Assembly: GCF_022828475.1 (NCBI RefSeq)
Contig: NZ_CP059557.1
Coordinates: 1,674,001 to 1,738,000 of the forward strand
Reading direction: 5' to 3'
Length of the DNA stretch: 64,000 nt
Source of the DNA: Saccharopolyspora gloriosae
GTDB lineage: Bacteria > Actinomycetota > Actinomycetes > Mycobacteriales > Pseudonocardiaceae
Part shown: positions 13,275-64,000 of the stretch, piece by piece
How the letters are laid out: every line of letters starts with the position of its first letter
Position numbering within the stretch: the stretch's first letter is position 1
The notes under the pieces: generated by a model
The model's input: the letters and a program-made list of their open reading frames with translations, nothing else
Told to the model about the DNA's origin: nothing
Databases searched by the model: none
Translations under genes and position numbers: made by a program

Positions 13275-13496
13275 CGCTGGCCGGTCTCCCCGGAGTCATT
13301 GGCCTGAGAGTTTCACCGCTCGTCGGCGGTTTGCACCTTGGGCGAGGGACACGAGTCCCTGCTTTTCTCCGTGATCGCCTGGTGTCGTGCGGTGCGGGGC
13401 CTGAGAGTTTGATGGGGAGATTGCTCCTTCGGCGCTGCACCCAGGAATCGCATCCTGCACGGACCAGGGGCTCCTGGCGGGGCACAGACTCTCCCG
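13275..13496 (-). promoter_or_regulatory. Tandem glycine riboswitch controlling gcvT-glyA
   Basis: Read on the minus strand, the first aptamer (about 13495-13399) opens with GGGAGAGTC and carries GCCGAAGGAGCAAT and AAACTCTCAGGCC. The second (about 13372-13300) carries CCCAAGGTGCAAACCGCC and again AAACTCTCAGG. The duplicated AAGG-GCAA and CTCTCAGG cores are the hallmark of cooperative two-aptamer glycine riboswitches that commonly activate the glycine cleavage system. The ACTCCGGGGAGA segment after aptamer 2 (about 13275-13298) could be the expression platform. It fills most of the 13223-13592 gap. Confidence 0.93.
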
Positions 13497-13592
13497 CACG
13501 ACGTCGTCGGCGTTGATGTCTCGTCTTCTGTTGTGGTCCGAAACGCTACGGAGATCACAGTTCGCAGTCAATCGAACGTGAGCGTGATCCCG

Positions 13593-31675: not shown

Positions 31676-32581
31676 ATGGCGAAGTACGACAAGGAGAGCG
31701 GCCACACCCCGAAGACCGCGCTCCGGGAGTCGTTGTTGAACTCCTTCCGCCCTCGCTCCGAGAGCAAGACCTCCCGGGTGTCCACCCGGAACAAGATCGC
31801 CGCGGCCGTCGTCGCGGCAGGCGCGTTCGCCGCCGTCGGCCAGCCGCTGGCCGCCAACGCGGACAAGAGCGCCGACAACCAGGCCGTCCGGCCGGTCGCC
31901 GACCAGCACGTGGCCGCGCAGCAGCAGCTCGCGACCGCCGTGAACGGCGACCACGGCACCCCGGCCTCGGTGCAGCTGCTCGACGCCAAGCCCGCCCAGG
32001 GTGCGCAAGACGAAGCCCAGAAGGTCGCCAAGGCCGAGGGCATCGCCCAGGAACAGGCGAAGGCCGTCGCGGACCAGAAGGCCGCGAAGGAAGCCGCCGA
32101 CAAGAAGGCCGATGAGGCCGAGAAGGCCGCGTCGGCTAAGGAGGCGGAGGCCCCGGCCAAGCCGGCGGCCGCAGCCGCGCCCGCCAAGGCGAGCAACGGC
32201 TACGTCAAGCCCGCCGATGGCACCTTCACCTCCGGGTTCGGTTCCCGCTGGGGCAGCACCCACAAGGGCATCGACATCGCCAACAGCATCGGCACCCCGA
32301 TCGTCAGCGTCAGCGGCGGTGAGGTCATCAGCGCCGGTCCCGCCAGCGGCTTCGGCCAGTGGGTCCGGGTGCAGCACAACGACGGCACGATCACCGTCTA
32401 CGGCCACGTGAACACCATCGACGTGAGCGTGGGCGACAAGGTCAACGCCGGTGACAAGATCGCCACTATCGGCAACAAGGGCCAGTCCACCGGCCCGCAC
32501 CTGCACTTCGAGGTCATCGAGGGCGGCAGCAAGACCAACCCGCTGCCGTGGCTGCAGGAGCACGGCATCTCCGTGAAGTGA
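31676..32581 (+). CDS. Secreted M23-family metallopeptidase
   Basis: 301 residues. A basic N-terminus and a hydrophobic segment (IAAAVVAAGAFAAVGQPLAA, about residues 41-60) direct export. An Ala/Lys/Glu-rich helical coiled region (about 105-170) leads to the LytM domain with HKGIDIAN (zinc His and Asp, about 198-205) and GPHLHFEV (catalytic and zinc His, about 274-281). It hydrolyses peptidoglycan cross-bridges. The start ATG at 31676 follows GGAAAGG. The long leader may hold a c-di-AMP riboswitch. Confidence 0.92.
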   Translation: MAKYDKESGHTPKTALRESLLNSFRPRSESKTSRVSTRNKIAAAVVAAGAFAAVGQPLAANADKSADNQAVRPVADQHVAAQQQLATAVNGDHGTPASVQLLDAKPAQGAQDEAQKVAKAEGIAQEQAKAVADQKAAKEAADKKADEAEKAASAKEAEAPAKPAAAAAPAKASNGYVKPADGTFTSGFGSRWGSTHKGIDIANSIGTPIVSVSGGEVISAGPASGFGQWVRVQHNDGTITVYGHVNTIDVSVGDKVNAGDKIATIGNKGQSTGPHLHFEVIEGGSKTNPLPWLQEHGISVK

Positions 32582-32734: not shown

Positions 32735-32850
32735 CGAAACGGCGAAGCCCGCGAAGGGCGGGCGAAGCCACGCTTGCCCGGCGGCCGAAGGCCGTGCCTT
32801 GCGGCGAAGCCGTGCCTGGATGCGCGAAGCGCATAGCCCACGTCACAAAG
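32735..32850. repeat. Run of small C(GAA)G-loop hairpins
   Basis: At least three short stems closed by C-GAA-G loops follow each other: CGGCC-GAA-GGCCG, GCGGC-GAA-GCCG and ATGCGC-GAA-GCGCAT, with a fourth CCCGC-GAAG-GGCGGG. Part of the series recurs at 985-1045. It lies between convergent genes; no coding potential. Confidence 0.5.
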
Positions 32851-32860
32851 CCGCTCACCC

Positions 32861-32965
32861 GCGGGTTCTCAGTTGGTCTCTCGCGAGGACAGCTTTTTCC
32901 CTCGTGGCGGAGCCACTAGGGAAAAAGATCCCGCAGCGAGAGACCAACTGAGGTTCCGCCACCCG
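32861..32965 (+). repeat. 105-bp structured repeat element, copy A
   Basis: A 17-bp outer stem (32868-32884 with 32936-32952), a conserved 8x8 internal loop, and an inner 10-bp stem CTTTTTCCCT/AGGGAAAAAG capped by TGGC-GGA-GCCA. GCGGGTT flanks the 5' side and GTTCCGCCACCCG the 3' side. Copy B at 63512-63616 (minus) has the same length and conserved loop and flanks, but different, still fully paired stems. It lies between the convergent M23 and sigF genes. Confidence 0.85.
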
Positions 32966-32990
32966 ACCCCCAAAGCAAAAAGAGCCCCGA

Positions 32991-33812
32991 TCAGTCGGAA
33001 GCAGCGGACTCGGTCGGAGACTCTGCTGTTTCCATGCGGTCTCGTAGCCAGACCAGGGTTCGGGACAGGAGCCTGGACACGTGCATCTGGGAGATGCCGA
33101 TCTGCTCCGCGATCTGGGTCTGCGTCATGGAGCGGAAGAACCGCATCACCAGGATCCGCCGTTCCCGCTCGTCGAGTTCGGCCAGCAGCGGACGGATCGT
33201 TTCCCGGTTCTCCACTTCGAGGAGCTCGGCGTCGTCGGAGCCGATCGCCGCTCCCAGCGGGATCTCGTCGGTGGCGGTGAGCAGTTCGTCCAGCGAGGCG
33301 CTCCGGTACGCGTTGCCCGCCTCCAAGCCGCGGAAAACGTCGTCCCGGCTGATGTCGAGGTGTTCGGCCAGCTCACTGGGTGTGGGCGCGCGGCCTAGCT
33401 CCTGGGAGAGACGGGCGATGGCCGAAGACACCGACAGGTGCAGTTCCTGGAGCCTGCGGGGCATTCGCACCGCCCAGCCGGTGTCCCGGAAGTGCCTGCG
33501 CACCTCGCCCATGATCGTGGGCACGGCGTAGGACAGGAAGTCCACTCCGCGGTCCGGGTCGAACCGGTCCACCGCGTTGATCAGCCCGAGGGTGGCGACC
33601 TGGGTGAGGTCTTCCTGTGCTTCGCCGCGGTGGCTGAACCGCCGCGCGATGTGCTCGGCCACCGGCAGGTGCGCGGTGACCAGCTTGTCCCGCAGCTGCG
33701 CATGGCGGGGATCTTGTTCACTCACACCCGCGAGTTCGGCGAACAGGGGCGCCAGTTCGTCGTAGCGTTGATGTCGCGAGCGCGCAGCGTGATCGGAATC
33801 CGCCTGCTTCAC
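32991..33812 (-). CDS. sigF: SigF/SigB-family RNA polymerase sigma factor
   Basis: 273 residues. Region 2 includes EDLTQVATLGLINAVDRFDP and FLSYAVPTIMGEVRRHFRD; region 3 has LGRAPTPSELAEHLDIS; region 4 ends with QTQIAEQIGISQMHVSRLLS. This layout is that of the stress/differentiation SigB/SigF group, lacking region 1.1. The start GTG at 33812 overlaps the stop of the anti-sigma gene (GTGA), the usual rsbW-sigF coupling. A SigF-type promoter precedes the operon, implying positive autoregulation released from RsbW inhibition. Confidence 0.93.
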   Translation of the reverse strand: MKQADSDHAARSRHQRYDELAPLFAELAGVSEQDPRHAQLRDKLVTAHLPVAEHIARRFSHRGEAQEDLTQVATLGLINAVDRFDPDRGVDFLSYAVPTIMGEVRRHFRDTGWAVRMPRRLQELHLSVSSAIARLSQELGRAPTPSELAEHLDISRDDVFRGLEAGNAYRSASLDELLTATDEIPLGAAIGSDDAELLEVENRETIRPLLAELDERERRILVMRFFRSMTQTQIAEQIGISQMHVSRLLSRTLVWLRDRMETAESPTESAASD

Positions 33813-59770: not shown

Positions 59771-60007
59771 GTGAACGGACCGTTCGTCCCATGCCCTTGG
59801 GCGAACGGTCCGTTCACTCGAAACACGGCGCTCGCGTCGGCGTGCTCGGGAGGGCTTGGGAGTGGGTGAACGGACCGTTCGTCCGATGTCTTTGGGCGAA
59901 GGGTCCGTTCACTCGAAACACGGCGCTCGTGTCGGCGTGCTCGGGAGGGCTTGGGAGTGGGTGAACGGACCGTTCGTCCAACTAGATTGGGCGAACGGTC
60001 CGTTCAC
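59771..60007. repeat. Three tandem 95-bp units, each with a 19-20 bp hairpin
   Basis: Hairpins GTGAACGGACCGTTCG...CGAACGGTCCGTTCAC occupy 59771-59817, 59866-59912 and 59961-60007, with nearly identical spacers (CGAAACACGGCGCTCG and on). The loops vary. The array fills the gap after the M50-like gene and ends 135 nt before the aldo/keto reductase. Confidence 0.88.
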
Positions 60008-60142
60008 TTCAGAGGTGCCCGGCGCGGCGCCCGGTCGTCGTCGGGGCAGCTTCGGGGTTAGTGGACCAGACCTGTGACGGGCCTGGACGCCGCTCGGAAG
60101 TCCACAGTGGCCGGCTCCGGAGCCTTGCCCTGAACCGGTCCC

Positions 60143-61314: not shown

Positions 61315-63474
61315 ATGGGTGACCCCCTCGACACGGGGAACGAGGCCGGGCCGCTGCCGGAACGCACCGGGTGGCGCGCGACGCTGGTCCTGCGGTGGGC
61401 GCAACGCCTTATCGACTGTTCCCCGGACATCCGGTTGTCCGAGGCGGATCTCCAGCAGGAGCTGGCGAAACTCGTCGACGAGTTGGCCGAGGCGCTGCAG
61501 GACCCGGCGCGCGCCGAGGAATCCGGCCGCATCGTGGGGGAGCGGCTGGTCGAACTGCACGCCACCGGCGACCGCAGCCTGGCGTGCACGCTGGAACTGA
61601 TCCGGGACTGCGTCGTCGGCGAATCCGGAGTGGGCGCGGTGGGACACCTGCTGCAACTGCTCACCTCGATCGCCGCGGCCTACTCGGCGGCCGACCGGGA
61701 ACGCGCCGAAGTCGAACGGCGCAACAACACGCAGGCGTTGCTGCGCGCCGACCGGGAGCTCAAGGCCAGCGACGCCAGGTTCCGCGAAGTGTTCACCAGC
61801 ACGCCCATCGGCGTCGCCATCAGCGACCTCGACGGCCGGTTCATGGAGGTCAACCCCGCGCTGGCCGAGATCCTCCGGCACAGCGAGGACGAGCTGCTGA
61901 CGATGGCCGTCCACGATCTGTTCCACCCCGAGGAGGCCGCGTACCTCAACGCCGCCTACGCCGAACTCGCCGAAGGCGGGCCGGGACAGCGGCTGCGGGA
62001 GCGACGCAGGCTGCTGCGCGCCGACGGCGAACAGGCGTGGACGTACCTGGCGGTGTCGCTGCTGCGCGGCGCCGACGGGGAACCGAAGCACATCGTCACG
62101 ATGGTCGAGGACATCAGCGACCTCTACCTGCTGCAGGAACGCATCCAGTACCAGGCGCTGCACGATGCGATGACGGGGTTGGCGAACCGGCAGTACTTCC
62201 GCACCCGCCTGGAGGCCGCGCAGGGGAACTTCCCGCCGGACGGCATGCTCACGCTCTACCACCTGGGGCTCGACGGGTTCGAGCTGATCAACGACGGTCT
62301 CGGCTACGAGACCGGGGACAAGGTGATCCGGGCCGTCGCGCACCGGCTGGAGCAGCTGGTGGAGAACGAGGAAGCGCTCGTCGCCCGCTTCGGCGGCACC
62401 GAATTCGCCATCCTCATCAGCGAATCCCCGCACACCCCGGCGATCCCGGAGTTCGCCGCGCTGATCAACGAAGAGCTGTCGGAGCCGATCTACATCGGCC
62501 AGCACGGCATCGCGACCTCGGCGAGCATCGGCGTGGTGCGCCGCACCGTGTCCGAAGGCGACCCGACGAACATGATGTGGGCGGCCGACGTGGCACTGCG
62601 CCGCGCGGAGATCGCCGGAGCCCGCCAGTGGGAGCTCTACGACCCGGACCTGGCCCCCGACGAGCGGACCGAGGCGCAACTGGCGGCGATCATGCCGGGC
62701 GCTTTGGAACTCGGCGAGTTCGAAGTCTGCTACCGGCCGACGGTGAGCCTGGCCACCGGATCCCTGATCAGCGTCGAGGCGCAGCTGCGGTGGAGCCCGC
62801 CAGGTCACGGAGCGCTCGGGCACAGCGAATGCCTGGAACTGGCCGAACGCTCCGGCGTGACGCTGGCGCTGCGGGACTGGATGCTGCGCGCGGCCTGGGA
62901 ACAGGTCGCCACCTGGAACCGAGCCGGATACGGCACCTGCTTTCTGATGGAGCTCAGCGAAAACCAGGTCCGCGACCCCGATCTGGTGGCGCTGGTGCGA
63001 TCCGTCATCGAGGACGGTGATCTCGACGCGAAGTGGATGCACCTGGCGATGCCGACGAGGGCGGTGATGGACGCGTCCGAGGAAATGCTGGAGAACATCC
63101 GCCTGCTGCGGAACCTCGGCGTTCGTCCGCTGCTGCACAGCTTCTCCGGTTCCGCGCCGGAACTCCGGTCGTTGCGCCGCATTCCGGTGGAAGGGGCGCG
63201 GTTGGCCGAGGAGCTGGTCGACATGGTTCACGGTTGCGAAGACCAGGACGATCCGGCTGTGCGTGCGGTGTGGCAACTCATCCCGTTGATGCATGACAGT
63301 GGGGTGAAGATCTGTACCGGGGACATCTCGGACGAGAAGCAGCAGCGGCATTGGGTTGAGGCCGGGTGTGACTTCGCTGTGGGGTCGCTTTACGGGGCGC
63401 CGGCTACTGCGTGGGATGCGCAGGCTTTGCTGCGTGCTTTTGGGGTTGCGCAGCCGCCGCACTCGCACGATTGA
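61315..63474 (+). CDS. PAS-GGDEF-EAL protein with degenerate catalytic motifs
   Basis: 719 residues. An N-terminal helical part (1-145), a PAS domain (FREVFTSTPIGVAISDLDGR, about 156-175; the domain ends near DISDLYLL), a GGDEF domain (HDAMTGLANRQYFRTRL, about 285; signature reads RFGGTEFAIL, Thr instead of Asp/Glu), and an EAL domain (ISVEAQLRW instead of EAL; the usual DDFG stretch reads HSFSGSAPEL). Both active sites appear lost. Likely a c-di-GMP-binding or scaffold protein, not an enzyme. The start ATG at 61315 follows AGGTGA. Confidence 0.88.
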   Translation: MGDPLDTGNEAGPLPERTGWRATLVLRWAQRLIDCSPDIRLSEADLQQELAKLVDELAEALQDPARAEESGRIVGERLVELHATGDRSLACTLELIRDCVVGESGVGAVGHLLQLLTSIAAAYSAADRERAEVERRNNTQALLRADRELKASDARFREVFTSTPIGVAISDLDGRFMEVNPALAEILRHSEDELLTMAVHDLFHPEEAAYLNAAYAELAEGGPGQRLRERRRLLRADGEQAWTYLAVSLLRGADGEPKHIVTMVEDISDLYLLQERIQYQALHDAMTGLANRQYFRTRLEAAQGNFPPDGMLTLYHLGLDGFELINDGLGYETGDKVIRAVAHRLEQLVENEEALVARFGGTEFAILISESPHTPAIPEFAALINEELSEPIYIGQHGIATSASIGVVRRTVSEGDPTNMMWAADVALRRAEIAGARQWELYDPDLAPDERTEAQLAAIMPGALELGEFEVCYRPTVSLATGSLISVEAQLRWSPPGHGALGHSECLELAERSGVTLALRDWMLRAAWEQVATWNRAGYGTCFLMELSENQVRDPDLVALVRSVIEDGDLDAKWMHLAMPTRAVMDASEEMLENIRLLRNLGVRPLLHSFSGSAPELRSLRRIPVEGARLAEELVDMVHGCEDQDDPAVRAVWQLIPLMHDSGVKICTGDISDEKQQRHWVEAGCDFAVGSLYGAPATAWDAQALLRAFGVAQPPHSHD

Positions 63475-63511
63475 GTTCTCCTCAGACGTCGGCTCGTTTT
63501 GCGTTGGTGTC

Positions 63512-63616
63512 CGGGTAGCGGAACCTCAGCGGCCTTCTCGCTGCGGGATCGATTTCTCAAGTAGCCACCTACTCAGCGAAATCGCTGTCCTCGCGAGAAG
63601 GCCGCTGAGAACCCGC
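63512..63616 (-). repeat. 105-bp structured repeat element, copy B
   Basis: Same length as copy A (32861-32965), inverted. Conserved flank GCGGGTTCTCAG, conserved loop GAGGACAGC and GATCCCGCA, conserved 3' flank GTTCCGCTACCCG. The variable part of the outer stem is CGGCCTT/AAGGCCG (TTGGTCT/AGACCAA in copy A), and the inner stem is GATTTC-GCTG-AGTAG against CTACT-TGA-GAAATC. Lies between the signalling gene and the transposase, again between convergent genes. Confidence 0.85.
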
Positions 63617-63653: not shown

Positions 63654-64000
63654 TCAGAATGCTGTGGCAAGGAGTTTGCGGGCGAGGATCATGCAGTGGG
63701 TGAGGTGGAGTAGGCCTTCGTGGATGTCGTCGCGGGTTTCCCAGCGGATGCGGAGTTTGCGGGGACCGTGGAGCCAGGCGAAGGCGGCTTCGACGACCCA
63801 GCGGAGTGTGCCGAGGCCGGATTCGTGCTGATCACCGCGACGTGCGATGCGGGGTGTGATGTTGCGGTCCCGTAGCTGGTGCCGGTATTTGTCGTGGTCA
63901 TAGCCGCGGTCGGCGTAGACGTGACGGGGTGTGCGGCGGGGTCGGCCTCGGACTCCGCGTACCGGTGGGACCGCCTCGATCAGCGGTATCAGCTGGGTGA
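63654..64000 (-). mobile_element. IS5-type transposase, C-terminal part, cut by the window edge
   Basis: Minus-strand frame ending at 63654 and still open at 64000 (115 residues visible). HVYADRGYDHDKYRHQLRDR, TPRIARRGDQHESGLGTLRW and VVEAAFAWLHGPRKLRIRWE are the C-terminal blocks of DDE transposases of the IS5 group; the last Asp/Glu of the catalytic triad is the Glu in WVVEAAF. The right terminus of the element is expected at about 63630-63653; GGGGTCCTTTCAG there may belong to the inverted repeat, but the other end is outside. Confidence 0.85.

Follow-up and report, generated by a model that had tools for sequence, protein, structure and literature searches.

A family of mobile, structured intergenic repeats in the Pseudonocardiaceae

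The 64-kb window of Saccharopolyspora gloriosae analysed here (the whole stretch of 64,000 nucleotides) contains two copies of a 105-bp structured element that belongs to a real, previously undescribed family of mobile structured repeats working like REP, BIME or BOX elements. We consider it probable that this element, a module referred to below as H2, forms the main hairpin of a mobile intergenic unit that Pseudonocardiaceae carry, one that is non-autonomous and recognised as a folded single strand. The genomes show directly that it is dispersed, has been gained and lost at orthologous sites, evolves by compensatory change, has a strand polarity and lies beside stop codons, and from these we infer recognition of the folded strand and insertion in trans.

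Window copies, architecture of the unit and host range

Inspection of the sequence placed both copies where an earlier note, made from the letters of the window, had located them (32861-32965 on the plus strand and 63512-63616 on the minus strand), with the arms it had described and an outer stem of 17 bp in each. Both half-patterns match the window at these two sites only (0 expected by chance), and copy 1 has a folding z-score of -9.0 as DNA and -9.5 as RNA. The flanking open reading frames also bear out the proposed setting between convergent genes for the two copies. Other parts of the earlier description had to be revised: the genome carries about 143 exact-core copies rather than two, and the 105 bp are not the whole element but cover just one module, H2, of something longer. 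As for the outer flanks, said to be constant, GTT is so but GCGG/CCGC is not; the latter pairs and covaries (GGGG/CCCC, GGAG/CTCC), and the base of H2 therefore reads GCGG-GTT-stem-GTT-CCGC. The features of the two loci are as follows.

31676-32581, plus strand: M23 peptidase gene flanking copy 1
32740-32834, plus strand: array of mini-hairpins with GNA loops, 5' of copy 1 (from the sequence; loop statistics from 182 copies)
32781-32817: tandem repeat inside the mini-hairpin array
32820-32834, plus strand: H1 proper, the last of the array (ATGCGC-GAA-GCGCAT; from the sequence)
32835-32860, plus strand: linker AGCCCACgtcacaaagccgctcaccc, kept in copies of the same genome and of other genera
32861-32864, plus strand: left arm of P1, GCGG, with its partner at 32956-32959 (covariation)
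32865-32867, plus strand: conserved GTT, left half of the GTT/GTT internal loop (alignments)
32868-32884, plus strand: left arm of P2, 17 nt, with a variable N7 centre (covariation)
32885-32893, plus strand: conserved internal-loop strand GAGGACAGC (copy comparison)
32894-32926, plus strand: P3 inner stem-loop, variable (covariation)
32927-32935, plus strand: conserved internal-loop strand GATCCCGCA (copy comparison)
32936-32952, plus strand: right arm of P2 (covariation)
32953-32959, plus strand: GTT and right arm of P1, CCGC (covariation)
32960-32986, plus strand: 3' tail ending in GCAAAAAGAGCC, 4 nt from the stop codon of the sigma factor gene (32991-32993)
32991-33812, minus strand: sigma factor gene flanking copy 1
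61315-63474, plus strand: open reading frame flanking copy 2
63491-63511, minus strand: 3' tail of copy 2 ending in GCAAAACGAGCC, 16 nt from the stop of the open reading frame at 61315-63474
63512-63616, minus strand: H2 module of copy 2 (covariance model score 158.3 bits)
63616-63613 and 63521-63518, minus strand: P1 arms of copy 2, GCGG and CCGC
63592-63584 and 63550-63542, minus strand: internal-loop strands of copy 2
ending at 63654, minus strand: transposase-like open reading frame flanking copy 2

Copy 2 is truncated in H1, most of which is lost, with only CTTAGCCCACC left 5' of H2. Elsewhere in the window we note a tandem glycine riboswitch at 13283-13506 on the minus strand, both aptamers of which score above the Rfam gathering score, and a 95-bp tandem repeat of 2.5 copies at 59771-60008 with the long palindrome GTGAACGGACCGTTCGTCCAATGACATTGGGCGAACGGTCCGTTCAC inside.

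The whole unit consists, in this order, of a 5' region, the H1 mini-hairpin, a linker, H2 and a tail, and comparison with empty sites gives it a length of 249-266 bp in S. indica, S. kobensis and a third genome. H2, of about 99 nt, is laid out as GCGG-GTT-17-nt P2 arm-GAGGACAGC-P3 hairpin-GATCCCGCA-P2 arm-GTT-CCGC, the strands GAGGACAGC/GATCCCGCA forming a 9x9 internal loop. The linker between H1 and H2 reads CCCACC..CGCAACCGGCACCGCC and the tail 3' of H2 reads GCACCGCYACGCAAAACGAGCC(TGGAAA), GCACCGCYACGCAAAACGAGCCTGGAAA being the tail motif in the definition of the unit. The stem of H1 is variable (AAGCGGC/GCCGCTT, ATGCGCC/GGCGCAT, TATGTGC/GCACATA) and its loop constantly GNA or GNNA; copies in Saccharopolyspora have H1 multiplied to an array. 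Alignments inspected by eye show conserved feet (GCGG-GTT for H2, AGCCCACC after H1), and among copies the 3' end is constant and the 5' end more variable. At five loci of S. hirsuta and S. indica the left P2 arm contains an additional hairpin (ACCCCTCCGGGGTT or similar), which marks these copies as a subfamily. One copy is chimeric, its left P2 arm being of the TTGGTCT type, its right arm of the TGAGCCT type and P2 mispaired, which suggests recombination between copies.

The search of Pseudonocardiaceae genomes that the earlier note had proposed uncovered many more copies than two. The pattern GAGGACAGC-N20-45-GATCCCGCA matches the 6.88-Mb genome of origin 143 times (0 for a reversed-pattern control) and 50 of the 297 family genomes sampled have it, a figure nearer 40 for true positives by pattern, as some single-match genomes hold chance matches inside genes; nine loci were set aside for absence of the flanking arms. 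Pattern copies number 12, 12, 92, 214 and 68 in congeners and at most 77 in other genera, exact patterns undercounting copies, and the tail motif has 36-112 matches in five Saccharopolyspora genomes. Hosts among the matches listed are Saccharopolyspora (at least 10 species), Actinopolyspora, Saccharomonospora/Prauserella, Labedaea and Amycolatopsis rhizosphaerae, and all named hosts are Pseudonocardiaceae. Among 395 genomes of the class, the exact pattern occurred in the genome of origin only and the covariance model matched this genome and one other of the same family; other families gave none, in a search by strict pattern, with seven candidates per genome scored by the model, that could miss weak relatives.

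Compensatory change and the folding strand

The case for a conserved fold comes from an alignment of 77 diverse H2 copies, and a covariance model was built on H2 copies. In this alignment 89.3% of pair cells pair, and cells changed on both sides number 413 versus 132 +/- 13 after shuffling and 65-121 when partners are slid by 1-3 columns; the copies are related, so that these cells cannot be taken as independent events. A covariation score of 0.433 was obtained, as against about 0.1, with double changes in 23 of the 32 pairs. The pattern that the earlier note had read from two copies, variable where paired and constant where unpaired, thus extends to hundreds of copies, in which compensatory change is strong; restriction of the element to two copies and absence of compensation were both looked for, and neither was found. 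The internal-loop strands are indeed well conserved, but their exact invariance was overstated, being partly a matter of construction because the loop motifs are part of the retrieval pattern; the covariance model also recovered divergent copies, which have strands such as GAGGACGGC/GCACCCGCA.

Non-Watson-Crick cells in distinct P2 stems comprise 84 G.T versus 18 A.C (57 versus 18 in distinct contexts, p = 7e-6). A duplex cruciform is expected to produce an excess of neither, and the surplus of G.T over A.C therefore identifies the strand read by the earlier note, not its complement, as the one that folds. This tolerance of G.T is equally compatible with RNA. The loops of the H1 region, scored in 182 copies, include 179 GNA triloops versus 5 of the complementary TNC type, and 27 GNYA versus 6 GNRA tetraloops. 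GNRA is favoured among RNA tetraloops, and d(cGNNAg) tetraloops are stable in DNA. d(GNA) triloops with a C-G closing pair are likewise stable DNA loops (PMC5815330). In five copies H2 has collapsed near its base, and in one further ortholog H2 is gone from between flanking GCACCGCC repeats. Such losses are to be expected of a hairpin that forms in replicating DNA; ordinary slippage could also account for the collapsed copies. Taken together, loop types and collapsed copies make folded DNA appear more likely than RNA.

The new RNA motif that the earlier note had listed among its options would, in its fullest form, be a functional RNA: the folding strand would be transcribed, and H1 with H2 would make a mobile small-RNA gene or 3'-end element whose loops bind a protein or ligand. 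The covarying stems, the conserved internal loops, the G.U-type tolerance on one strand and the RNA folding z-score of -9.5 all agree with such a role. We nonetheless regard it as doubtful, given the loop types, which favour DNA hairpins (tetraloops GNYA over GNRA, 27:6), a copy number ranging from 12 to 214 between congeners, and the orientation of the neighbouring gene, whose transcription would read the opposite strand at most copies. A scan of copy 1 that covered the sigma-70 consensus alone found no promoter-like site, and Rfam 15 yielded no match at gathering score and, at an E-value threshold, only chance matches below the cut-off.

Mobility and placement behind stop codons

Judged by its presence and absence at orthologous sites, the unit is mobile. 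The spacer orthologous to that of copy 1 is empty in four genomes and in another holds an element in the opposite orientation. Between S. indica and S. kobensis, one locus differs by a 265-bp insert with TCAGCTTTCCTTCCGGCGGAAG present twice, amounting to a 22-bp target duplication, a second by a 251-bp insert with a 7-bp duplication (TCAYTGC), and a third by a 249-bp insert with no duplication; for the second of these, a third genome has a 266-bp insert with the duplication perfect (TCACTGC). At five other loci the insert has replaced target sequence (10 bp at L220, 14 bp at L208, 9 bp at L222, 16 bp at L228 and 34 bp at L250). Gain rather than loss is most evident at inserts flanked by a target duplication. 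A second dispersed palindrome, GCGATTTC(C/A)ATTGAAATCGC, lies near several Saccharopolyspora copies (L200, L204, L212, L113, L329 and others), and at L329 it sits where the ortholog L250 has the element.

The copies are positioned with respect to gene ends. With genes called by open frame and a third-position G+C rule, 164 of 189 distinct copies have the end of an opposite-strand gene on their right, in most cases 50-70 nt from GATCCCGCA. A stop codon lies within 40 nt of the tail motif in 57 of 77 scorable copies and at 15-30 nt, about the length of the tail, in 47 of them; the left end, scorable in 13 copies, is not tightly placed. The adjoining stops are TGA (100), TAG (21) and TAA (12), and because the latter two also occur, TGA as insertion target was rejected as the sole explanation. 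This placement has a precedent in GTAG REPs, which often adjoin or supply stop codons (PMC3733652). It could reflect an insertion preference or selection for harmless sites.

The same placement, with the right end (tail included) 15-30 nt from the stop in 47 of 77 scorable copies and the element often between convergent genes, would suit a terminator, insulator or mRNA 3'-end stabiliser serving the gene whose stop codon precedes the element. We hold this to be unlikely, since the element folds with a polarity opposite to the adjacent transcript and orthologous genes manage without it. The inner stem, with T5 on its 5' side and A5 on its 3' side, is the reverse of an intrinsic terminator, and a terminator scan returned only weak minus-strand sites (3 versus 0.7 expected). 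The bidirectional terminator of the earlier note is at best weakly supported, a T-run preceding the inner stem on both strands.

A mobile element read as a folded strand would operate as follows. Whenever the strand becomes single-stranded, for instance as lagging-strand template, H1, with its d(cGNAg) or d(cGNNAg) loop, and H2 would fold; an enzyme supplied in trans would read the constant loops instead of the stem sequence and insert a copy elsewhere. Copies directly behind a stop codon would spare coding sequence and promoters and so persist, and the H1 array of Saccharopolyspora may have arisen by local duplication.

Candidate mobilisers and comparison with known systems

Searches for the enzyme covered several families. 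PF01797 (Y1/RAYT transposase) was not detected in ten copy-bearing genomes, that of origin included, and is present in six others and weak in a seventh; PF00078 (reverse transcriptase) was not detected in 11 of 13 copy-bearing genomes, among them the genome of origin, S. indica and S. kobensis. PF04986 (IS91/ISCR Y2 transposase) had no match in 13 genomes, the positive control being likewise silent. No neighbour gene recurs in flanks of 1.5 kb or about 7 kb, and 30 tail-bearing loci of five genomes revealed no autonomous master copy or tail-bearing transposon. The ends of the unit are only loosely similar to each other when compared for terminal inverted repeats, collections of phages, plasmids and viruses gave no match, and no description was found among the open-access papers searched. 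The mobiliser may possibly have been lost, be horizontally supplied or have escaped recognition. As known mobilisers went undetected in the richest genomes, an enzyme of another kind is implied. The target duplication is not of constant length (22, 7 or 0 bp, with small losses), as that of a DDE-type MITE would be, and such variable lengths match the action of neither Y1 nor a classical DDE transposase. We tentatively entertain a distinct class of mobile element, namely a two-hairpin unit read by shape (conserved internal loops plus GNA/GNNA loops) and placed beside coding-sequence ends with duplications of variable length; its enzyme would belong neither to the Y1/RAYT transposases nor to the reverse transcriptases.

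The REP-like transposase target of the earlier note survives in part. Of that note's options a mobile sequence of REP-like type is the best fit, yet not as one acted on by the REP transposase already known, since PF01797 went undetected in the ten copy-bearing genomes. A canonical REP moved by a RAYT (Y1 HUH) transposase shares copy number, intergenic sites beside stop codons and hairpin structure with our unit, yet is improbable in view of the ten copy-bearing genomes above, a hairpin foot at which no conserved GTAG, GTGG or CGTC tag was recognised, and target duplications, which Y1 is not expected to make; RAYT mobilisation is largely refuted. Even less probable is a SINE-like retroposon inserted by target-primed reverse transcription, which would account for the variable duplications (22, 7, 0), the small target losses and the constant 3' and more variable 5' ends, but not for the 11 of 13 genomes in which PF00078 was undetected.

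Dispersed DNA repeats do not usually show compensatory change on one strand among paralogous copies within single genomes, and the copies, in hosts including Saccharopolyspora, Amycolatopsis and Actinopolyspora, amount to a natural structure-function data set for the recognition of folded single strands. Related species with and without copies make the implied mobilising enzyme testable, and adjacency to stop codons informs how repeats settle in compact genomes.

BOX elements of pneumococcus are modular structured intergenic repeats with one module in variable number. In our unit, too, one module (H1) varies in number; phylum and conserved motifs differ. Integron attC sites are folded single-strand hairpins with an unpaired central region and a variable terminal loop, located behind a stop codon. 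H2 shares these traits, but lacks the RYYYAAC/GTTRRRY boxes, has GTT on both arms and lies outside cassette arrays. CGTC-tagged palindromic repeats are, like our family, dispersed palindromes without a known dedicated transposase, but have stems of 8-9 bp and loops of 4-5 nt, whereas the present unit is far larger, modular and without the tag (PMC3733652). A resemblance also exists to REP, REPIN and BIME sequences with their RAYT (TnpA-REP), which are likewise short structured intergenic repeats, dispersed in high copy number, non-autonomous, found beside stop codons and tolerant of G.T in their stems (PMC2817692, PMC3116915, PMC6006769). Compared with the 21-65 nt of REP hairpins, H2 measures about 99 nt and has two conserved internal loops within a unit of about 250 bp that includes a second, GNA hairpin. 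Unlike REP, moreover, it shows no recognised GTAG/GTGG tag, most copy-rich genomes tested have no detected Y1 transposase, and some copies are flanked by target duplications.
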